Assembly (NCBI GenBank): GCA_001825665.1
Contig: MHXZ01000102.1
Location: forward strand, 1 to 64,000
Source: Planctomycetes bacterium GWF2_41_51
GTDB taxonomy: Bacteria; Planctomycetota; Phycisphaerae; Sedimentisphaerales; UBA12454
Direction: 5' to 3'
DNA length: 64,000 nucleotides
Every line of letters begins with the position of its first letter. The first letter of the stretch is position 1. Below are positions 690 to 13,651 of this stretch, piece by piece. The notes below the pieces were generated by a model that was not told the DNA's origin, did no database searches, and saw only the letters and a program-made list of their open reading frames with translations. The translations under genes were made by a program, and so were the position numbers.

Positions 690-3137
690 ATGAGGGAGAA
701 TACAGTTAAGGGATCTTTGATTGTTCTTTTTGTTAGTTGCTTTATCTTGTTTTGGATATTAGCTTCTTTCAGTGCATCTATTTATTTCATCACCTTTTTA
801 ATGGGCTTAGTCAGTATATTATTTTTAAGGCATAAATTTATAATAACTTTTTCTAAAAAAATATTATTAACAGTTTTATTTTTAATTTGTTTTATAATTG
901 GTTATGAAAAAGGAATGCAGTTTTTTTTTCAAAGCATGCTTGTTTTTGGGGTCGTGGGGGTTTTAATTTGGAAATTTATTAAAGATCCTAATAAAGGAAT
1001 TTCAATGAAAACAGCATTTTCATCAGTTGAAATAATAAAAAAAATCATTTCAAAACCTCAGCCTTATTTCTTAGGCAAAGGCACAAAAATTGAAATTGGA
1101 GGATATATCCTTGAAGATCCTTTAATTTATGTTGTCGATAGTAAAACCTATGAAGAGTTTGATGCCAGTCTTTTATGTTTGAGACAACCGGTCGGATTTC
1201 CACAACAAACCAATCAGCGAACTTTACCTTATTGGCCGTCTTTGAGTAATGCTGATCCAAATCAAGTGGCAACTTACGTTAATTGGCTTGCGACAGGAAG
1301 AAAAGACCCCAATATCGAATTGGGTTATGTGTTTATATGTTTTTATGGATTAGAACGTAGAGCTCTTGTTGATAGGAAAGATATACTTGATGTAGGGTAT
1401 GAAGTTATAAGGCTATTGGGAATATATGGAAATTCAGGTTCGTTTAGAAATTATGCTACAGGGTTATTAATTCATCTAATTCTTTTGGGTATCCTAATGC
1501 CTAAAAGGAAATTAATTACAGCTTTAATGAATTATCAAGAAGGTTATCTTTCAGAAACGTTTCAGACAATGTTGCTTGGGTATTTGAGTAAAAATAACAT
1601 ACCTTTGCCAGACAATTGGGCGTTTTATCTTGCAAAACAGGACGAGAGGGTGGTTAGAAGTGTTGTTCTTACCAGAGCCTCGGAAGAATTTCAAAAGCTG
1701 TTTACGCTTCGATACAATGAAAAATGTGCAAATCAATTGATTCCTAAAAGTAATGGACATACCCATTGGATTGAATATCGTGCTGCATCACCGACTTTAC
1801 TTCGAGGAGAAGGATTTGAGACAACAGTATCACCAGCAGAATGGCCTGTAATTGTTGAGTGGAAAAAACAATTTTCGCCAGTGGTCAAGCTTTTCAACGA
1901 TTGTATAGAAGAATTAAAAGCTTATTCTCGAAAGACAGCACGGTCTACCATAGATAAATCGAAAGCTTTCACAGCATTGCCATCTGATCTTCAGCAAGAA
2001 CTGAAGCATCCTCAACAGGATGAGTGGGATAAATTGTTAGAAAGTTATTCGAATGACTCAAAAATATGGTTAGTGCCTGTTGAAAAAATAGCTGACTTAA
2101 ATAGAATTACATATCGACCAAAAATTTCTTTAAGTCAGTCAGAGCAAATAGCAAGGTTTGTTGAATCATTCGGCTTATCTATCGAGCCAGATCCGCGCTA
2201 TACAGAAAAGCCCTTCCAATGGAAAGATTATGCCGCTATTTTGCGTTTGCCGGATAAGCCATATTTGCCTGAGACGAAAAATTATGCTTTAGTTAGCGTG
2301 ATTGTGCCATTAGCAATCGAAGTATCGTTGGCCAGTGGAGAGTTGGAAGAAAAAGAGCAGCAAGTTATTGTTGAATTCTTGCAAGAACGTTTCATGTTAA
2401 CGCGCAATGACCGTCTACGATTAGATGCTTTGATCGAGGTAAGTCTGAAAAATGAAATATCTTTATTGGGCATAAAATATAAGATTCAATATTTATTTAA
2501 TGAAGTGCAATGCAAATCTATTGGTAAATTCCTTGTTATGATTGCAGGTTCTGTAAGTGGAATCTGCCCGAAAGAACTGGAGGCATTAGAAAAGATATTT
2601 GTTAAGGTGTTATGGTTATCAAAAGAACTTGTAAAAGAATTTGTTAATGAATTGGGTTATACGATAAATGAAGCGGAACGTTTAAGCATAAAAGGTATTA
2701 AAGGCTCACAAGGTGAGGTAATTCCGCCGAGAGTTGCAATATTAGACATAAATAAAATTAGAAAAATTCGCGAAGAAAGTATCGAAGCATCAAAGCTCTT
2801 AATTCAGGCAATGGAACAATCCGCCTCTGAAGCATCACATAGTGATATAGCTGTGATTAAAAATGAAACAGTAGTGATGCAAAATGAGAGCATCCGCAAT
2901 ATATCAAATATTTTAATATCTAATCATATTAAGCCATTTTTCCAGGAAATTATTACAAAAGAAAAATGGCCTAACGATGAAGTAAATGCTCTTGCTAGAA
3001 AACACAAGGTAACTATTTCAGCTGCTCTTGAGGAGATAAACACGTGGTCAGATGAGAATTTAGGAGATTTTCTAATTGAAGAAGGTGATAATTTAACTGT
3101 AAACAAAGAGTTACTCGATAATTTCGGAGGCAATTAA
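690..3137 (+). CDS. TerB N-/C-terminal domain protein with N-terminal transmembrane segments (Shango SngA-like)
   Basis: 815 aa; 'WIEYRAASPTLLRGEGFETTVSPAEWPVIVEWKKQFSPVVKLFNDCIEELKAYSR' resembles TerB_N proteins; hydrophobic N-terminus; position upstream of ATPase and helicase. Confidence 0.7.
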   Translation: MRENTVKGSLIVLFVSCFILFWILASFSASIYFITFLMGLVSILFLRHKFIITFSKKILLTVLFLICFIIGYEKGMQFFFQSMLVFGVVGVLIWKFIKDPNKGISMKTAFSSVEIIKKIISKPQPYFLGKGTKIEIGGYILEDPLIYVVDSKTYEEFDASLLCLRQPVGFPQQTNQRTLPYWPSLSNADPNQVATYVNWLATGRKDPNIELGYVFICFYGLERRALVDRKDILDVGYEVIRLLGIYGNSGSFRNYATGLLIHLILLGILMPKRKLITALMNYQEGYLSETFQTMLLGYLSKNNIPLPDNWAFYLAKQDERVVRSVVLTRASEEFQKLFTLRYNEKCANQLIPKSNGHTHWIEYRAASPTLLRGEGFETTVSPAEWPVIVEWKKQFSPVVKLFNDCIEELKAYSRKTARSTIDKSKAFTALPSDLQQELKHPQQDEWDKLLESYSNDSKIWLVPVEKIADLNRITYRPKISLSQSEQIARFVESFGLSIEPDPRYTEKPFQWKDYAAILRLPDKPYLPETKNYALVSVIVPLAIEVSLASGELEEKEQQVIVEFLQERFMLTRNDRLRLDALIEVSLKNEISLLGIKYKIQYLFNEVQCKSIGKFLVMIAGSVSGICPKELEALEKIFVKVLWLSKELVKEFVNELGYTINEAERLSIKGIKGSQGEVIPPRVAILDINKIRKIREESIEASKLLIQAMEQSASEASHSDIAVIKNETVVMQNESIRNISNILISNHIKPFFQEIITKEKWPNDEVNALARKHKVTISAALEEINTWSDENLGDFLIEEGDNLTVNKELLDNFGGN

Positions 3138-4441
3138 TGAAAATAAAACATAGAGAAAGAACCGCAATTCTCCAGAGTTTGGCAGCAGGCGTTGTTCCCA
3201 AAATTGGTTTACAACATATTCAAGTTGGAAGAAAAAATGAGTTACAGGCACTGATCACTGATTTAATGAATATCGAAGATGGGTGTTCTTCCATTCGTTT
3301 TGTGATAGGGAGGTTTGGGAGTGGTAAGAGCTTTTTTCTTAACTTGGTAAGAACAGTTGCCATAGAACGTAAATTTGTGATTTTACAAGCGGATATTACA
3401 GTTGATCGTAGATTATATGGTTCAGGAGGTTCTGCAAGGGCTTTATATACAGAGTTGATTAAAAATATGTCCACTCGTGCTAAACCTGAAGGGGGAGCTC
3501 TGTCAGGTCTTATTGAAAAATTTGTTCTTGATATTCATAATGAACTAAATGGAACAAAAGATTTTGATAAGTTAGAAAATGCAGTAAAAACAAGGCTGCA
3601 GCCCTTATTGGATCTGACACATGGTATGAATTTAATTCGTGTATTGGCAAAATACGTAGAAGGATTTTCAACCAGTAATGACGATTTGATGAATGCTGCA
3701 ACCCGCTGGTTACGCGGTGAATATGGTACCAAAACGGAAGCCAGGCAAGATCTTGATGTTAGGGATATTATAGAAGATGAGCATTTTTATGATATGCTTA
3801 AATTATGGGCAAAGTTTATTAAGCTTGCAGGTTACAGCGGTTTGTTTGTGAACTTAGATGAGCTTGTAGTTCTTTCAGAAAGACTAAATAATAGTGCTGC
3901 ACGGGCCAAAAACTATGAGATGATTTTACATATTTTAAACGATTGTCTTCAAGGCCATGTTGAAGGACTGGGATTTTGTTTTGCTGGAACTGAGGATTTC
4001 TTATCTGACAGAAAACGTGGATTATTTAGCTATGAAGCGTTAGCAACCCGTTTAGCCGATAACCCTTTCTCAATTGAGGGAACTGTCGATACTAAAGGCC
4101 CCGTGATACGGCTTGAACCACTTAGCCGAGAAGATTTATTTGTTTTACTTGGCAGGATTGTCAATGTTCATTCAAATGAGTTTCCAGAAAAAACTATAAT
4201 TAATGAAGATGGAATATTGAGGTTCATGAATCATTGTGAAAAGCGATTAGGGGCTGAATATTTTTTGACACCAAGAGATGCCGTTCAACAATTTGTAGGT
4301 TTGTTAAATGTAATGGAACAGAATCCAGACAAAGATATATCGTACTTTATTAAAGATGAAAATAAAAAAATTATTTTTAAAATAGATGAATCTACAGATT
4401 GTAAACCTGGAAATGATGAACTTGTTGATTTTAAACTTTAA
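3137..4441 (+). CDS. P-loop ATP-binding protein (BrxD/DUF2791-like; Shango SngB-like)
   Basis: Walker A 'GRFGSGKSFFLN', Walker B-like 'GLFVNLDELVVL'; TAATG overlap with upstream gene. Confidence 0.75.
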   Translation: MKIKHRERTAILQSLAAGVVPKIGLQHIQVGRKNELQALITDLMNIEDGCSSIRFVIGRFGSGKSFFLNLVRTVAIERKFVILQADITVDRRLYGSGGSARALYTELIKNMSTRAKPEGGALSGLIEKFVLDIHNELNGTKDFDKLENAVKTRLQPLLDLTHGMNLIRVLAKYVEGFSTSNDDLMNAATRWLRGEYGTKTEARQDLDVRDIIEDEHFYDMLKLWAKFIKLAGYSGLFVNLDELVVLSERLNNSAARAKNYEMILHILNDCLQGHVEGLGFCFAGTEDFLSDRKRGLFSYEALATRLADNPFSIEGTVDTKGPVIRLEPLSREDLFVLLGRIVNVHSNEFPEKTIINEDGILRFMNHCEKRLGAEYFLTPRDAVQQFVGLLNVMEQNPDKDISYFIKDENKKIIFKIDESTDCKPGNDELVDFKL

Positions 4442-4444
4442 ACT

Positions 4445-6670
4445 ATGACTTCAGCTTTTAATAGACTACATAGGTCCGTTCAGAACGTTTTATGGGATAT
4501 GAAATGGACCCAGTTGTATCAATTCCAGGTGGACTCTATTAATGCTTGGTTTGACACCGAAAGCGATATTATACTTATGGCAAATACTGCTGCTGGTAAA
4601 ACAGAAGCGGCTTTCTTGCCAATAATATCATCTTTAGCTGAAAATAACGGTTTCGGGTCAATTAGAGTCATTTATGTTGGACCTCTTAAGGCCTTAATAA
4701 ATGACCAATTTCAAAGGTTGGAAGAATTATGTAACAGAACCGAAATCCCAGTTCATAGATGGCATGGAGATGTTGATAGCTCAAAGAAAGCAAAAATAAT
4801 CAAATATCCTTCAGGTATATTGTTAATTACACCCGAATCTTTAGAGTCCTTATTGATGAAAGTAGGTCAAGACTCAAGAAGGATATTTTCAAACTTACAA
4901 GCTATAGTTATTGATGAATTACATGTGTTTTTAGATTCTGAGCGGGGGAGGCAATTAGCATCTTTGATTAACAGAATCGATGCATACAGGCAAGATTTAA
5001 TTCGAGCGAGAAAAATAGGGTTATCTGCTACAATCGGCGATGTCGATATTGCACAAAAGTGGTTAGCAGGAAACCATGAAAATACTCCTTCACTTATTAA
5101 ATCATCTCAGAGTAATGATGTTGAATTGTTAATCAAAACATTTATTGATGATTCTCCAGCAAGTTCCGATGGAGATGGTGATGAAATTATAAACAATAAT
5201 TTAATATCTATTGCAAATCATGTTTTAACTCATCTTAACGGCAAAACCAATTTAGTATTCTGTAATAGCAAAACTCAAATAGAAGAATTAGCTGACAATT
5301 TAGCACAAATTTCTAAACAGAAAAAATTACCAAATCAATTCTTAGTTCATCATGGTTCATTAAGTAAAGCGTTTAGAGAATCTGTAGAATATGAATTAAA
5401 ATCAGATCGTCCTTGCACGGCAATATGTAGCAGTACGTTGGAATTGGGTATTGATATTGGCGAAGTCGATGCAGTGGGGCAGATCGCACCACCACACAGC
5501 GTCAGTGCGTTGAAACAAAGAATGGGCAGAAGCGGTCGTAGAGAAGGGAAACCTTCTAAGTTGTATTTATATGTTCCTGTAAAAAAATGTAATGAAAAAA
5601 CTATTTTGCCTGAAAGACTTTATCCCAATTTAGTTCAAGGATTGTCACTTATTTTACTCATGCTGGGACAGGAAGGTATAGGTAAATGGATAGAACCTCC
5701 TTTGTTATTTGAAAAGGATTATAGTACTCTTATACAGCAGATATTGAGCATTATTGTCGAAAAGGGGGGAATACAGGCAAGTAACTTATATAAGTTAGTA
5801 TCGTTAAAACATGTATTTGGTAACATTTTACCAGACGAATTTTCTACGATTCTTAAAAGTTTGGGTGAATATGAATTAATTGAACAAGTTGAAGATGGAG
5901 ATTTAATTTTAGGCTTAGAAGGAGAGAGGATTGTATCTCACTATGATTTTTTTGCTGCATTTGAAACTCCCAAAAATTATGAGGTTGTATCATCTTCTGG
6001 TGCTATTGGCCAAGTTGAAGGACGAGAAGGATTTTATCAGCCGGATAGTTATATATTATTAGGAGGAAAACGATGGAAGATAGTAGATGTTGATGAACGG
6101 CAGATGAAAATTTTAGTCGAAAAAGCTAAAGGCAAAAAGCTTGTTCAATGGCACGGAGGAGGTGGAAATATTCATGAAAATATTAGAAGAACAATGTATT
6201 ACATTCTTCAAAAGAAAATTATACCGCCTTGGCTTGAAGCAAATTCAAAAATAGTTTTAGATTGGGCAATCCAGGAATTTCATCGAAATAATCTGGCCAA
6301 TAATTACATAGTAAATGAAGGAAATCTTCTGCATCTATTTACTTGGACGAGCACTCGTGCCAACCATACACTTTATTTAGTATTTAGATCAGCAGGTTTG
6401 GCTGCCAGCGAGGTCACGGATCAGGGTATTGCAATTACCATTCAAAAATCTAACTTTTCAGCTATAGATGCCAAATTAATTTTAAAGGATTTCATGAACA
6501 GACATATGAACCCGGAAGACCTATGTTCTTCTGTGTTTTCGGAAGATATTCCTGCGGTAGGTAAGCACGGAAGTTATCTATCTTCGGGATTAAAGGCAAA
6601 AGCATATGCCGCCAAATATATTGACATGGATGAAGCTTTAAAAATTGTTAAATTAATACTTAAAAAGTAA
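4445..6670 (+). CDS. DEAD/DEAH-box (Lhr-like) helicase (Shango SngC-like)
   Basis: 'ANTAAGKTEAA' Walker A, 'VIDELHVF' motif II, 'GLSATIGD' motif III, 'QRMGRSGRREGKPSK' motif VI. Confidence 0.85.
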   Translation: MTSAFNRLHRSVQNVLWDMKWTQLYQFQVDSINAWFDTESDIILMANTAAGKTEAAFLPIISSLAENNGFGSIRVIYVGPLKALINDQFQRLEELCNRTEIPVHRWHGDVDSSKKAKIIKYPSGILLITPESLESLLMKVGQDSRRIFSNLQAIVIDELHVFLDSERGRQLASLINRIDAYRQDLIRARKIGLSATIGDVDIAQKWLAGNHENTPSLIKSSQSNDVELLIKTFIDDSPASSDGDGDEIINNNLISIANHVLTHLNGKTNLVFCNSKTQIEELADNLAQISKQKKLPNQFLVHHGSLSKAFRESVEYELKSDRPCTAICSSTLELGIDIGEVDAVGQIAPPHSVSALKQRMGRSGRREGKPSKLYLYVPVKKCNEKTILPERLYPNLVQGLSLILLMLGQEGIGKWIEPPLLFEKDYSTLIQQILSIIVEKGGIQASNLYKLVSLKHVFGNILPDEFSTILKSLGEYELIEQVEDGDLILGLEGERIVSHYDFFAAFETPKNYEVVSSSGAIGQVEGREGFYQPDSYILLGGKRWKIVDVDERQMKILVEKAKGKKLVQWHGGGGNIHENIRRTMYYILQKKIIPPWLEANSKIVLDWAIQEFHRNNLANNYIVNEGNLLHLFTWTSTRANHTLYLVFRSAGLAASEVTDQGIAITIQKSNFSAIDAKLILKDFMNRHMNPEDLCSSVFSEDIPAVGKHGSYLSSGLKAKAYAAKYIDMDEALKIVKLILKK

Positions 6671-6781: not shown

Positions 6782-7057
6782 ATGAAAAAAATGACTGTTT
6801 CAATCCTGCTTTATTTAGTCCTGTTATTTCCATTAAATATTTACGGGCACAGTGGAAGAACTGATTCCCAAGGTGGGCACTATAATAGAAAAACTGGTGA
6901 ATATCACTATCACAATTCAGGTTCGCGTACTTCTTCCTCTGGAACGCTCAATCCCGCTGCTATAGATAGAGTAGCCGCTTCGCCAAAACCGGTAAAAACA
7001 GATAGAACTGATAATGATAATCAGTCGAAAAATTACAGTCCGAAATTGTCTCATTAA
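6782..7057 (+). CDS. YHYH-domain small secreted protein
   Basis: Signal peptide-like N-terminus then 'GHSGRTDSQGGHYNRKTGEYHYHNSG'. Confidence 0.7.
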   Translation: MKKMTVSILLYLVLLFPLNIYGHSGRTDSQGGHYNRKTGEYHYHNSGSRTSSSGTLNPAAIDRVAASPKPVKTDRTDNDNQSKNYSPKLSH

Positions 7058-7818: not shown

Positions 7819-8095
7819 ATGAAAGAAAGAATTGAAACGTTCGTGCCAATTATTATTGCAGTTGTTCTTTTAGTTTCTTCAATTTCAAATGCACATTCAG
7901 GAGGAACAGATAGTAGAGGGCGGCCACCATGTCAGAAGAACTGGTGAGTATCATTTTCACCATGGTCTATGTCCTTATGTAAATAGTAACCATAATAAAC
8001 AAAGTAACAATAAATCAGATTTCTTAAGATTAATACCATTAGGACTGATGGCCTTAATTGGTGGAGCAGCAATGGTAAATAAATATCATAAATAA
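7819..8095 (+). pseudogene. YHYH-domain protein interrupted by a +1 nt frameshift
   Basis: Frame from 7819 gives MKERIETFVPIIIAVVLLVSSISNAHSGGTDSRG then diverges; another frame continues GGHHVRRTGEYHFHHG; removing one G from 'agagggcgg' restores a continuous YHYH protein. Confidence 0.65.
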
Positions 8096-8148: not shown

Positions 8149-8598
8149 TTAATTAAGTAAATAATTACTTTCTATGAGGGTATTTATTTTTCGAAGTTCA
8201 GAGAATTTCATATATCTATAGCTTTGAGGAGGGGTAAAGCCGGGAAATAGTCCCCTTAATTTCTTAAGGGAAATTGGGCAATCAAAAAGAGAGACGTTTT
8301 TAATCATAATTCCATAACCGATATCTGAACCTTCATAATAACTAAAAAAGTCATCTTTTGTAATGCCTGATGACGAACCGACTTTTTTCCATAATTTATC
8401 GGGTGTATCTTTTATAACATTTGAGACTTCAAATACTCCCATCAATTCCATTATAGGTGAAGACACATAGACCAGAACTTTATCGCCATCTTGTAGCCTA
8501 GGGCGAACTTTTCTTAATTCAACTGATTTATCATAATTAAATATTTTGGTGGCATACGTAGGTTTAATAGACAGCAAAAGAGCTTCATTTCCCATCAA
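8149..8598 (-). CDS. ASCH (PUA-like) domain protein
   Basis: 'ALLLSIKPTYATKIFNYDKSVELRKVRPRLQDGDKVLVYVSSPIMELMGVFEV' typical of ASCH domains; 4-nt overlap with upstream gene. Confidence 0.7.
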   Translation of the reverse strand: MMGNEALLLSIKPTYATKIFNYDKSVELRKVRPRLQDGDKVLVYVSSPIMELMGVFEVSNVIKDTPDKLWKKVGSSSGITKDDFFSYYEGSDIGYGIMIKNVSLFDCPISLKKLRGLFPGFTPPQSYRYMKFSELRKINTLIESNYLLN

Positions 8599-10688
8599 AA
8601 CATTCCTTCTGAATATATTTTCAAAAAAACATCATTTCTAATCGGCTGGGGCTGTTGTATCTGGTATTTCTGGGACATTTCAAGAAATATATTATTTAGC
8701 CTTTTTAACTTTATCGGCTTTTTGAGCAGTTCTGTATTAGTAAATTTTAAGACCATTATATCATTATTAATATCACCTTTTGCCTTTTCAAGAACATTCT
8801 CCCATTGGTATATCCCAAAACGCTGATGTTTACGAAACAAATCTTTTGGTTTGCCAACTTGGACTTCTTCTAATAATGAACAAGCTCTTACATTTTGGCT
8901 AAATCCACTTTCATCTCCACTTACATACCATAAAAGTCTTGCGGGGAAAGTAATTTTCGGACCATGTGCAGAGCGGTAATAAATCATCGTGTCATTTAAA
9001 GCTAATTCAGTTTTTCTTCCAAATAACAATGCAATTCTATGCTCAAACAATTCTTGTGCCCATTTCGATTGTATTGGTACGGTATAACAAGGCATATAAC
9101 CATCCTCCAATTTTAGAGGAAAGTGATAATGTTCTACTGAAGCGACAAAGTCATATGACTTAATGTTATTCTTATCTTTAATTAAATTAGCCCAGTCTTC
9201 AAGCCCTTCATATTCAACCTCTATGTTATCACTTTGTGCAAGAATTTTGTCAGCAACTTGAGCCGAATTCAATATATATGGTAGGTTAATTTTAACATGT
9301 CCGTTCAGGCATTCAAAAAAACCAAATGCAAATATGATTTCTTTGATTACTTTATTAATGTTTTGATCTGAAATTCGTGTTATATACTTTTTTGAATCGA
9401 TACTAAACTTTATACAATCTCGTATAATTTGCCGAGCCAATGTAAATCCTTTGATGTTTTCTACAACTCTCAATATAGGAATTTCAATTTCAGGATTTTG
9501 CTCTTGAGGGACAGATTTTGCAATTAATCCTATTGGATTATTGTCTTCTGTAATAACATGCAAGGTGTATTGCAGAGGATTTAAAACAGAATGGATTGTA
9601 TGCCTGAATTGATTTTTTCTTTCCAAAGAAGGATTCTGAAAGATAGTAATCAAATTTTCTATTTCATCGGCTTTAGCTAATGAAAGTTGGATAGGAGTAC
9701 CAATAAAACGAGATGGCTCATAATTACCTATTCCACATAATTCGTCAATTTTTATAATGAATTGTGCTGGTCTCAATATTGTTAAATTATATTTATGTTT
9801 TAATGTCTCAAAGCTTGAAGATATTAGCTTTTCATCGTTTGTAACAAAATATTCCGCTCCAAAACCTATTGCCCATGCCATGTGTTTTAAATCGGATTTA
9901 TCTTGGTCTGATTGTTTTTCTGGAAATAGAAGATTTAGTTCGGAATTTATCCTATCAAAGTCTAAGGCAGAGCAGTCAGCTTGATAAAATGATTGTGCTT
10001 GTGCTCGATTTTTTGTTTGTATTGTATCATCTTTTTTTCTATGAATTTCATTATAAAGTTCTGGAGTTATGAATAATTCCACATTATCATCTATCCAGAG
10101 ACGTTTGAGCCTGAATGTTGGTGCGTTATTTTCGTTTTCTTCTTTAACAAATTCATAAACAATGTTTGCGTCTATGACAGCAGAGATTTTTTCTTGCTTT
10201 AACTTTTGGGCGGTAGAACTGAATAAATCTGGTTTACCATTACCCCTCCACCAAGTTATCAATTTTTTAGAGCCTTTGCCTCTGCCAGAAGTCTGTGTCA
10301 AATAGCTAAAGCCAAATTTTTCCCAAAAATGAGAATTAAAATAATCTTCTCTGCATTTCAATGCAATACCAGCAGTATGTTTCGTATGTTGAATTAAAAA
10401 ATCAACTAATTGTTTTGCAACACCTCGGCCTCTTTTATTAGCATCAACGCAAAGGTGGGTAATGGCTGTTTTATTTTTTGTAATTCTATAGAGTAAATAA
10501 CCGCAGCATATATCTGTTTCATCAACTGCAATTATTATTAATTTTTTATTTTTATGTTCTTCAAAAGCTCCTTTTGGGAAAAAACCCAAGCGGCTTGCGT
10601 CTTTTTTCCATAGATCTTGAACCTGATTTAAATGTTTCTCAGTTTTAAGAACTTCAATATTAACTTGATTATTTGTTATTGATGTCAA
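8595..10688 (-). CDS. Multidomain GNAT acetyltransferase - PIN nuclease - ASCH-like protein
   Basis: GNAT motif A 'THLCVDANKRGRGVAKQLVDFLI'; PIN-like 'AVIDANIVYEF...SDLKHMAWAIGFGAEYFVTNDEKLI'; C-terminal segment resembles the adjacent ASCH protein. Confidence 0.65.
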   Translation of the reverse strand: MTSITNNQVNIEVLKTEKHLNQVQDLWKKDASRLGFFPKGAFEEHKNKKLIIIAVDETDICCGYLLYRITKNKTAITHLCVDANKRGRGVAKQLVDFLIQHTKHTAGIALKCREDYFNSHFWEKFGFSYLTQTSGRGKGSKKLITWWRGNGKPDLFSSTAQKLKQEKISAVIDANIVYEFVKEENENNAPTFRLKRLWIDDNVELFITPELYNEIHRKKDDTIQTKNRAQAQSFYQADCSALDFDRINSELNLLFPEKQSDQDKSDLKHMAWAIGFGAEYFVTNDEKLISSSFETLKHKYNLTILRPAQFIIKIDELCGIGNYEPSRFIGTPIQLSLAKADEIENLITIFQNPSLERKNQFRHTIHSVLNPLQYTLHVITEDNNPIGLIAKSVPQEQNPEIEIPILRVVENIKGFTLARQIIRDCIKFSIDSKKYITRISDQNINKVIKEIIFAFGFFECLNGHVKINLPYILNSAQVADKILAQSDNIEVEYEGLEDWANLIKDKNNIKSYDFVASVEHYHFPLKLEDGYMPCYTVPIQSKWAQELFEHRIALLFGRKTELALNDTMIYYRSAHGPKITFPARLLWYVSGDESGFSQNVRACSLLEEVQVGKPKDLFRKHQRFGIYQWENVLEKAKGDINNDIMVLKFTNTELLKKPIKLKRLNNIFLEMSQKYQIQQPQPIRNDVFLKIYSEGMF

Positions 10689-10858: not shown

Positions 10859-12142
10859 TCATGCCAGTTTCAATCTATCAAGCGGATACCATGTGGCATA
10901 TTTTTTGACTACTTTAATTATTTTTTCATCATGCCATGGATTTATAAAATCGATAATTTTATCTTCGGGTGGAAAACAACTGTGGCAATATTTTGGAGTC
11001 ATATCTTTGGGGACAATTCCACAATAATCCGTACCCTTGAGCATCTGTAGCAATTCTTGGGCGTCTGCTAATACAAATGGAATTTTATTTTCAGATAATG
11101 CGATTGTCATTCTCGCCGTTTCTACGACTCGCACTCTGCTTGATCCAGCCAAGTATAGTTGCCATCCATGTGGTTTCTTTTGGACTATCAAAGAAATATG
11201 TGTTGAATTGCCACCCTTGCAGATTTCCCATGGATGGCCTCCAATATGTGATTTATCACGATACCAATCGCTGAATGCCTTTTCTGAATTTCCTGGGATA
11301 TCAATAAGTCCTGCATTTCTTCCATCAGCCATTTTTTTGTATTTAGATCGAGATGTCTCGGATTGTTTGTTTTTAAAATAGCCATTGGCATCATAGCATA
11401 ATTGACAATAGTGAAAAAACTTATCTGCGGTCATGGCAGGGATTACGGCTTCTGTATCCATTTTACTAAGAGCGATCTCAAACTGTCTAAGATGTGTTTC
11501 TCCCAGTGCTACATCCAATCGTTCTATCTCTGGTATATGTTCCCATAGCTCAAGTCGTTTGATCTTACCGAATCTTTTATGTAATGGCAGATTATCAATA
11601 ATATATTCATTGTAGGCATCAATGTCTCTCGAAGCAGTAAGGATCTCAGTTTTAATATTTGACTGAACCCACAATAGGAATGCAACCAGTTTATCATCTT
11701 CAAATGATATACCAGATATTTGACCGGTCTCAATATTCAATTGGAAAACCAGCTTAGGTTCAAAAATAAAAATATAGATATTTTGATATACGCGAAAGGA
11801 TACTTTGTGCCATATAATTTCTTCAGGATAATAACTTTCGCTCAGGGATTTGAGTTCGGCTCGGTTTTTGATTTCGCCGGACTCTATCATCTCTTCATAT
11901 TCCTCTTTATTGATAAATGCAGACATTGGCCCGCGTTTTGAGCGAATCCACAATGACCAAACCTTATCCTGGCCATCCAATTGGGGTTGTATCACTTGCA
12001 GACTTTGATGTAATTGTTCCAGTATTGCAGTTATTTTCTTCGATACGCACGAATTATTCCGCCGATTGTAAGTACCGAAATCAGTACCGGCATATCTTTC
12101 GATGATTCCATCGATTTGTGGCGTATAAAACTTTTTTTTCAT
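10859..12142 (-). CDS. Hypothetical protein, 427 aa, no recognised domain
   Basis: Long ORF in series with minus-strand genes; 'SHIGGHPWEICKGGNSTHISLIV' motif. Confidence 0.6.
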   Translation of the reverse strand: MKKKFYTPQIDGIIERYAGTDFGTYNRRNNSCVSKKITAILEQLHQSLQVIQPQLDGQDKVWSLWIRSKRGPMSAFINKEEYEEMIESGEIKNRAELKSLSESYYPEEIIWHKVSFRVYQNIYIFIFEPKLVFQLNIETGQISGISFEDDKLVAFLLWVQSNIKTEILTASRDIDAYNEYIIDNLPLHKRFGKIKRLELWEHIPEIERLDVALGETHLRQFEIALSKMDTEAVIPAMTADKFFHYCQLCYDANGYFKNKQSETSRSKYKKMADGRNAGLIDIPGNSEKAFSDWYRDKSHIGGHPWEICKGGNSTHISLIVQKKPHGWQLYLAGSSRVRVVETARMTIALSENKIPFVLADAQELLQMLKGTDYCGIVPKDMTPKYCHSCFPPEDKIIDFINPWHDEKIIKVVKKYATWYPLDRLKLA

Positions 12143-12206: not shown

Positions 12207-13070
12207 TCATTTCTTTGCCTTTTGAATTACAGGCCAGAGCCGAGTTTGCAAATAGTTGATAATCTCTGATAATTTCAGTCCTGAATCGGAAAGATTACTG
12301 CGATTCAAAAAAGCTTTCCACTGTATTTCTTTCGTACTATCTTCCAAAAACTCCAGGCTCAATCCCACAGGTAATTGCTGCGGCAGTTCTACCTTTCGCC
12401 TGTTAAATGTTGCCTTGATCGCTTGTGCCAACAAATCGTTATCTATATTCATATGGTTTAGAAGAATGTATATATCGTAAAAATCTTTCATCCGGCTGTT
12501 CATAATGCCATGCACAACCATCGCGTTAATCTTTTCAGCAATCACAGTAGCAGGATGGTATGCTCTTATTCTTGGAGCGGGCAAATCTAAAATGGTTGGA
12601 TATACAATTTCCTCCGGAGCAGGTATTATAGCATCTCCCAATCCGATATCTATTTGAAGAGGAATTCTCCCATTGCCCAGAAAAGCTAATAGGTGTATCC
12701 GTGTTCCCAAATATTCCTGATCATCACGTATATCTTCTGTCTGTATCGAGCCTGCGTCGAATCTCAAACCATCGTCCTCGAACACTACATCACAGGCATC
12801 TGAAAATAATTGTTTCAATTGTTGATTAGATGGATTACCAAACCCAAGCAAATCAATGTCGCGGGTTGGCCGTCCGGGAACTTCGTGCCATAAAGCAAAA
12901 AGCATTGCGCCTTTTAGTACAAATACATCTGAATGATTGGAAAGCATGATCCTATAAAGCAATCGTTCCAGTCCATACCTGACCAATATGCTATTGAAAT
13001 TCTCGCCGGTTTTATCCCGAACGTTCAGTAATCGTTGATGAATAGATTGTGCAATGCCAGCTTTGTTCAT
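12207..13070 (-). CDS. abiEii: Nucleotidyltransferase AbiEii/AbiGii-family toxin
   Basis: 'FVLKGAMLFALWHEVPGRPTRDIDLLGFGN' nucleotidyltransferase motif; start set to ATG at 13070 (ATGA overlap with antitoxin stop). Confidence 0.88.
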   Translation of the reverse strand: MNKAGIAQSIHQRLLNVRDKTGENFNSILVRYGLERLLYRIMLSNHSDVFVLKGAMLFALWHEVPGRPTRDIDLLGFGNPSNQQLKQLFSDACDVVFEDDGLRFDAGSIQTEDIRDDQEYLGTRIHLLAFLGNGRIPLQIDIGLGDAIIPAPEEIVYPTILDLPAPRIRAYHPATVIAEKINAMVVHGIMNSRMKDFYDIYILLNHMNIDNDLLAQAIKATFNRRKVELPQQLPVGLSLEFLEDSTKEIQWKAFLNRSNLSDSGLKLSEIINYLQTRLWPVIQKAKK

Positions 13071-13651
13071 TTGCTCATTTCCAGATAAGGACGAATTACG
13101 TTGGTCATGCGGCATATTTTTGCATATCGCCAAATTTCATCGCGAGTCGCTTTCTTTTGTTTTAGAGAATCGACAAGAGCTTCGCGAGCCACATCAATTC
13201 CTATTTTATTACGGAATTTAAAACAATCGACCACCGTTTTGGCTGGGCAATAAACACGAACAGAAAGCCCTTCTTTTTTGTGTGTTTCTATACCTTCAGA
13301 AAATGCCTTTCCAGTAAGTTTAACGATACGCACGTTCGGTGATTTGGGCTTTGAAGCATTGCTCTCGATAGCTACCCATGTTTTGAATGGCATTTGGGTT
13401 GTTATTTCATGGAACTGTAGAGCCGATAGAAGGCAAATAACACTGCTGGGCGCTGACGTCATCACGTCTGCAAATGCTTCAAATGACAAATAGTTTCCAG
13501 CCAGAGTATATACTCCGCGGGTAACTCGACGAAGGGTACCACGATTAGCCATATAATGCAGCATGGTTCGAGGTATCCCGGCTTTTTTCAGGTCTGCGGC
13601 TGAACTCGATCCTTTGGCTTTTATAATATTAATTACTTTTTCTTTGTTCAT
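13067..13651 (-). CDS. abiEi: AbiEi-family type IV TA antitoxin
   Basis: N-terminal winged-HTH 'SSAADLKKAGIPRTMLHYMANRGTLRRVTRGVYTLAG'; 4-nt overlap with abiEii. Confidence 0.88.
   Translation of the reverse strand: MNKEKVINIIKAKGSSSAADLKKAGIPRTMLHYMANRGTLRRVTRGVYTLAGNYLSFEAFADVMTSAPSSVICLLSALQFHEITTQMPFKTWVAIESNASKPKSPNVRIVKLTGKAFSEGIETHKKEGLSVRVYCPAKTVVDCFKFRNKIGIDVAREALVDSLKQKKATRDEIWRYAKICRMTNVIRPYLEMSK

Follow-up and report, generated by a model that had tools for sequence, protein, structure and literature searches.

Operons encoding proteins of the PIN-GNAT-EVE family were described by Bell et al. 2020, who class the family under toxin-antitoxin systems and report that its operons nearly always include an ASCH gene and often adjoin type I restriction-modification genes; none of the modules described there was experimentally tested (PMC7641849). 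In the literature library that we searched, we found neither an experimental test of PIN-GNAT-EVE/ASCH cassettes nor a paper naming PDC-M11, a defence candidate of PADLOC. ZmASCH of Zymomonas mobilis is a single-strand RNase (PMC5615036), and E. coli YqfB is an N4-acetylcytidine amidohydrolase with the triad Lys21, Thr24 and Glu74 (PMC6972931).

Here, we analysed a two-gene cassette in a stretch of 64,000 nucleotides from Planctomycetes bacterium GWF2_41_51 (contig MHXZ01000102.1), referred to as the window. Judged by its sequence matches, the cassette is a long form of the predicted (PIN)-GNAT-EVE + ASCH operon and belongs to PDC-M11. The original prediction had called it an undescribed module, which is incorrect because the operon of Bell et al. 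2020 (PMC7641849) and PDC-M11 already cover the gene pair. What is new here is that PIN decay is tied to type IV restriction enzymes in the long forms; the text of PMC7641849 mentions neither McrBC linkage nor cyanobacterial PIN decay.

Gene pair and domain architecture

The cassette is located on the minus strand between positions 8149 and 10688 of the window, where the original prediction had placed a 697-aa gene and a small ASCH gene overlapping by 4 nt; both open reading frames were confirmed, the overlap being counted from a TTG start. The features are as follows.

8595..10688, minus strand: long gene, open reading frame for the 697-aa GNAT1-PIN-GNAT2-ASCH/EVE protein, long form of PDC-M11A
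10242..10661, minus strand: GNAT1 (aa 10-149), from Pfam PF00583, Foldseek GNAT matches and the RGRGVA loop in the 19-row alignment
9735..10187, minus strand: PIN nuclease domain (aa 168-318), from Pfam PIN_3 and the acids D173, E214, D266 and D285
9288..9692, minus strand: degenerate GNAT2 (aa 333-467), from AlphaFold2 secondary structure in GNAT order and hhalign to the short form
8598..9101, minus strand: C-terminal PUA-superfamily ASCH/EVE domain (aa 530-697), from hhalign to the partner family and Foldseek matches to ZmASCH
8149..8598, minus strand: partner gene, open reading frame for a 149-aa ASCH protein of ZmASCH type (PDC-M11B), its start overlapping the stop of the long gene

The long gene starts with TTG and is preceded by an RBS-like GAGGAAG at 10701-10695. 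The partner comprises 149 aa from a TTG start, which gives the 4 nt overlap, or 148 aa from the adjacent in-frame ATG, with which the overlap is one base (TGATG); a Shine-Dalgarno-like AGAAGGA lies immediately upstream of its start. The copy sits between Shango (SngABC, 690-6670) and AbiE (12207-13651), in agreement with the Shango-like and AbiE neighbours first read from the sequence. A 427-aa protein is encoded 170 bp upstream of the long gene on the same strand (10859-12142, minus strand), for which Pfam, NCBIfam and PADLOC searches returned no significant family. This gene and a 239-aa gene downstream were considered as further parts of the cassette and left out because no homologues adjoin the other copies. 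The 239-aa gene of unknown function is flanked by genes for two small proteins (6782-7057 and 7889-8095, both plus strand) with a common His-rich motif (HSGRTDSQGGHYNRKTGEYHYH and GGHHVRRTGEYHFHHG).

In PADLOC, the long protein matches PDC-M11A (E 1.2e-14) and the partner PDC-M11B (E 3.4e-37), the assignment to PDC-M11 being based on the matches of both proteins with PADLOC's own coverage rules left aside. The PDC-M11A profile, 486 positions long, represents the short form, and the 697-aa protein matches it in two separate stretches. The part comprising PIN, GNAT2 and the C-terminal domain aligns end-to-end with short PIN-GNAT-EVE proteins (hhalign E 2.8e-18, 444 columns), and GNAT2 aligns with their single GNAT inside this match. 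The long protein therefore corresponds to the short form with an additional N-terminal GNAT.

The order GNAT, PIN, degenerate GNAT and ASCH-like C-terminus, proposed from the sequence, was borne out by Pfam, AlphaFold2 and hhalign. Pfam detected a GNAT domain (PF00583, aa 43-127, E 1.2e-11) and PIN_3 (PF13470, aa 170-286, E 3.4e-8), both above the gathering score. Structure prediction of both proteins, which the original prediction had called for, gave a four-domain model of the long protein from a 19-row alignment (mean pLDDT 82.8), in which the relative placement of the domains is uncertain because of a pTM of 0.58, and a ZmASCH-like model of the partner (pLDDT 91.4, TM 0.86). The similarity of the partner to ZmASCH was also found by hmmsearch against 5gus (E 1.8e-29).

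Within the long protein, a canonical acetyl-CoA loop is present in GNAT1 alone (RGRGVA, aa 86-91). By Foldseek, this domain resembles protein N-terminal acetyltransferases of the RimI/Ard1 type, a fold which does not specify the substrate. The loop of GNAT2 is degenerate and the second glycine of the loop region is missing. All four predicted metal-binding acids of the PIN domain (D173, E214, D266 and D285) are present, that is, the intact set looked for in a VapBC-like PIN. E210 had been considered for the catalytic glutamate and was replaced by E214, which is conserved among the homologues and fits the PIN_3 pattern, and which we take to be the catalytic residue. No PIN structure was among the best 50 Foldseek matches of the whole model because these were filled by GNAT matches. 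The C-terminal domain was modelled as a barrel, and ZmASCH structures are among the PDB matches of the long-protein model (Foldseek E 2e-7 to 6e-7). Its resemblance to the ASCH partner, suspected from the first inspection, was confirmed by profile comparison with the partner family (hhalign 95.9%, E 5.1e-9, 140 columns), which shows the two to be homologous. With ZmASCH as its nearest solved match and the ASCH partner as its nearest family, EVE and ASCH are not separated for this domain, which is also a homologue of the C-terminus of the short form.

Distribution and genomic neighbourhood

The long form is patchily distributed across the genomes searched. With the centre genomes included, it was detected in 5 of 395 genomes in the phylum of the window (long matches only, one of them a fragment), 15 of 388 in the phylum of a Nostoc locus (L007; one split), 1 of 348 in that of a Georgenia locus (L016) and 2 of 301 in that of an Anaerolineaceae locus (L024). 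Named loci stem from Verrucomicrobia, cyanobacteria, Actinobacteria, an Anaerolineaceae bacterium, Prevotella and Caulobacter. A direct search of viral contigs revealed no relative; phage- and prophage-borne GNAT-EVE + ASCH pairs were found (L101).

In almost all complete loci, which represent several phyla, the ASCH gene overlaps the long gene or follows within 25 nt downstream; in L092 it is divergent, and L011 lacks it. The original prediction of a linked sensor-effector cassette is supported in this respect, the cassette being widespread and conserved as a unit with an ASCH gene at nearly every locus, and the roles of sensor and effector are predicted ones. Several further variants were observed. 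The long-form gene is split in L087 and fragmented in L021. L011 encodes a 631-aa long form with mcrC directly downstream; ASCH and mcrB are missing there. A long form on a Caulobacter plasmid (L107:3870-6011) has a very long branch and Glu at the position of D285, and its ASCH match begins at the 3' end of the long gene. Single-chain proteins of the window's phylum comprise a 348-aa protein with GNAT and ASCH domains by Pfam (L096:7416-8462) and a 355-aa protein matching the ASCH profile (L097:2841-3908). In the window's class, two proteins of 313-315 aa contain a GNAT1-like domain (L098:7917-8858 and L099:7578-8525), and no ASCH gene was found near either.

The defence context expected by the original prediction was recovered in part: defence genes lie beside about half of the McrBC-free loci and none was recognised among the genes scanned at the other half, counts that are descriptive and no measure of enrichment, as the scan covered a subset of neighbours and no control loci. 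Copies adjoin AbiE (L005), a type I restriction subunit (L022), type IIG systems (L004, L018), an Eco57I methylase with an SNF2-PLD helicase (L017) or Hma genes (L089), and the short forms L093 and L094 adjoin DrmA and type I specificity subunits. At four loci (L006, L085, L088, L024), the adjacent genes among the neighbours scanned are of housekeeping type, so the gene pair may also stand alone.

PIN decay and type IV restriction enzymes

We compared 38 different long-form proteins, 21 of them cyanobacterial and linked to McrBC and 17 McrBC-free, including that of the window. The four acidic PIN residues were complete in none of the 21 linked proteins and in 16 of the 17 McrBC-free ones (Fisher's exact test, 7.6e-10, shared ancestry ignored); with E210 instead of E214, the acids were intact in 0/21 versus 14/17. 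Downstream of ASCH, the cyanobacterial loci encode an AAA ATPase (AAA_5) and McrC (PF10117, E 1.3e-44). McrBC is partial in three of the 21, with only mcrB in view in L003 and L079 and only mcrC in L011. A known reader was looked for in the McrB N-terminus, which gave no PDB match and no Pfam reader domain. The window's own genome contains an unlinked McrC, and its PIN is intact.

McrBC was gained once on the tree (clade support 87/94), which indicates one acquisition followed by decay in one clade and not many independent swaps, and which leaves a phylogenetic pair test of McrBC against PIN intactness without power. The pattern could therefore also reflect lineage drift, with PIN decay in one cyanobacterial clade unrelated to McrBC. 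The single gain is in line with this, and the loss of E214 in every member of the clade needs only one acid-to-non-acid change, so that one ancestral event would be enough for a PIN-dead clade. We nevertheless regard drift as rather unlikely, as three observations speak against it. First, L085, a locus of the same phylum without McrBC and with a seryl-tRNA synthetase gene as upstream neighbour, has kept all four acids. Second, in L086, the McrBC-free exception from this phylum, positions 266 and 285 are occupied by C and Q, and the gene for Mrr (PF04471 E 5.7e-37; PADLOC type IV E 3.9e-90) lies 134 bp upstream in the same orientation. Third, relaxation is largely limited to the PIN domain: 8 of 11 conserved columns were lost there in the McrBC clade compared to 9 of 57 in all other domains. 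The clade accounts for 4.9 of 33.8 units of branch length and for 21 catalytic-site changes, with 3 outside (4 if L107 is included), compared to 50 changes inside and 58 outside at control conserved columns (odds ratio 8.1, p 2e-4).

The Mrr case, a single one (n = 1), fits a swap of one nuclease for another. Together, the decay of a predicted RNA-cutting site beside a DNA-cutting restriction enzyme suggests an interchangeable cutter.

Candidate functions and comparison with known systems

The loss of the PIN acids bears on a classical toxin-antitoxin function, in which the long protein would be the toxin by its PIN and/or GNAT domains and the small ASCH protein the antitoxin. Overlapping genes, a small partner, the frequency of PIN and GNAT domains among toxins and the filing of the family by Bell et al. 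2020 (PMC7641849) are all in line with it. The effector gene comes first, however, and the partner keeps the functional Tyr and Ser of ZmASCH. Moreover, ASCH is kept in 20 of the 21 McrBC loci whose PIN lost its catalytic acids, even in five PIN-dead loci in which GNAT1 likewise has a degenerate loop (QNKK instead of RGKG; L007, L020, L023, L074, L077, all McrBC-linked), where a pure antitoxin would be left without a target. Such persistence would be expected of a reader or structural subunit and not of an antitoxin for the PIN or GNAT. We consider a classical toxin-antitoxin system unlikely. The original prediction had left toxin-antitoxin and defence as options; the simple form of the former is weakened by the kept ASCH genes, and the defence neighbours at about half of the McrBC-free loci speak for the latter.

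Base modification, in which the GNAT would acetylate a DNA or RNA base and ASCH/EVE would bind the mark, appears still less probable. Bell et al. (PMC7641849) cite Iyer et al. for this proposal, which agrees with the intact GNAT1 loop RGRGVA of the window protein, the fusion of GNAT to PUA-type readers and the single-chain GNAT-ASCH fusion of L096. GNAT2, the GNAT common to the short form, has lost its glycine loop in the long form, however; GNAT1 is RimI/Ard1-like, even if the fold leaves the substrate undefined, and its loop is gone in the five McrBC-linked proteins. Bell et al. also suggested (PMC7641849) that PIN-GNAT-EVE proteins counter GNAT acetyl-tRNA toxins by degrading acetylated aminoacyl-tRNA. 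GNAT-EVE + ASCH pairs on phages and prophages (L101) would suit such a countermeasure, which does not account for DNA restriction enzymes taking the place of the PIN in cyanobacteria and which we rate as highly improbable.

On balance, we favour the reading that the window encodes a PIN-armed long-form (PIN)-GNAT-EVE + ASCH cassette that probably combines readers with a PIN effector, a role that McrBC or Mrr would take over in cyanobacterial relatives. Beyond the observed domain content, family membership, operon conservation and pattern of PIN acids and restriction enzymes, we infer that the two proteins may form a complex, in which the ASCH/EVE domain at the C-terminus and the co-translated partner would be readers of a probably modified nucleic acid. 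GNAT1 would contribute an acetylation step. The PIN ribonuclease would be the effector at the window locus, released or directed once the readers meet foreign nucleic acid, and would most likely cut RNA, halting growth or infection, which may amount to an anti-phage role. In the cyanobacterial relatives, the same core would operate with a DNA nuclease, namely McrBC or, at one locus, Mrr, and their PIN would be a dead scaffold.

More tentatively, GNAT1-(PIN)-GNAT2-ASCH + ASCH could be a portable nucleic-acid sensor with an exchangeable killing part. It is likewise conceivable, if not the safer assumption, that PIN serves where the unit stands alone and decays to a scaffold once McrBC or Mrr has joined the operon. 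If true, the sensor could direct either an RNA-cutting or a DNA-cutting enzyme. Predictions of PIN-GNAT-EVE/ASCH cassettes date back to 2013-2020; the restriction-enzyme link yields a testable claim about effector versus sensor, for which PIN-intact and McrBC-linked loci are matched natural pairs for experiments.

Compared to known systems, the partner has the ASCH fold in common with E. coli YqfB (Foldseek E 4e-4) and keeps the Lys and Arg of the motif, whereas the position of the nucleophile Thr24 is, by motif spacing, an invariant Glu (E27) in 19 of 19 partners; a YqfB-type deacetylase role was excluded on account of this Thr-to-Glu difference (PMC6972931). Tyr47 and Ser128 of ZmASCH (5GUQ, PMC5615036) are kept as Y44 and S126, whereas the equivalent of Lys53 is M50 in the window partner and Lys in most relatives, so that the Tyr47, Lys53 and Ser128 set of a ZmASCH-type RNase is incomplete here. 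The type IV restriction enzymes linked to 21 cyanobacterial loci (McrBC) and to one more genome of that phylum (Mrr) do not adjoin the window copy, in which the PIN acids are intact. With the (PIN)-GNAT-EVE + ASCH operons of Bell et al. 2020 (PMC7641849), the cassette shares the order of PIN, GNAT-like and PUA-superfamily domains, the adjacent ASCH gene and defence neighbourhoods. The AAA_17 ATPase, frequent but not invariable in those operons, is absent from the neighbouring genes that we scanned in the window, and the long form differs from the proteins described there by an additional N-terminal GNAT with a canonical loop, while the inherited GNAT is degenerate.
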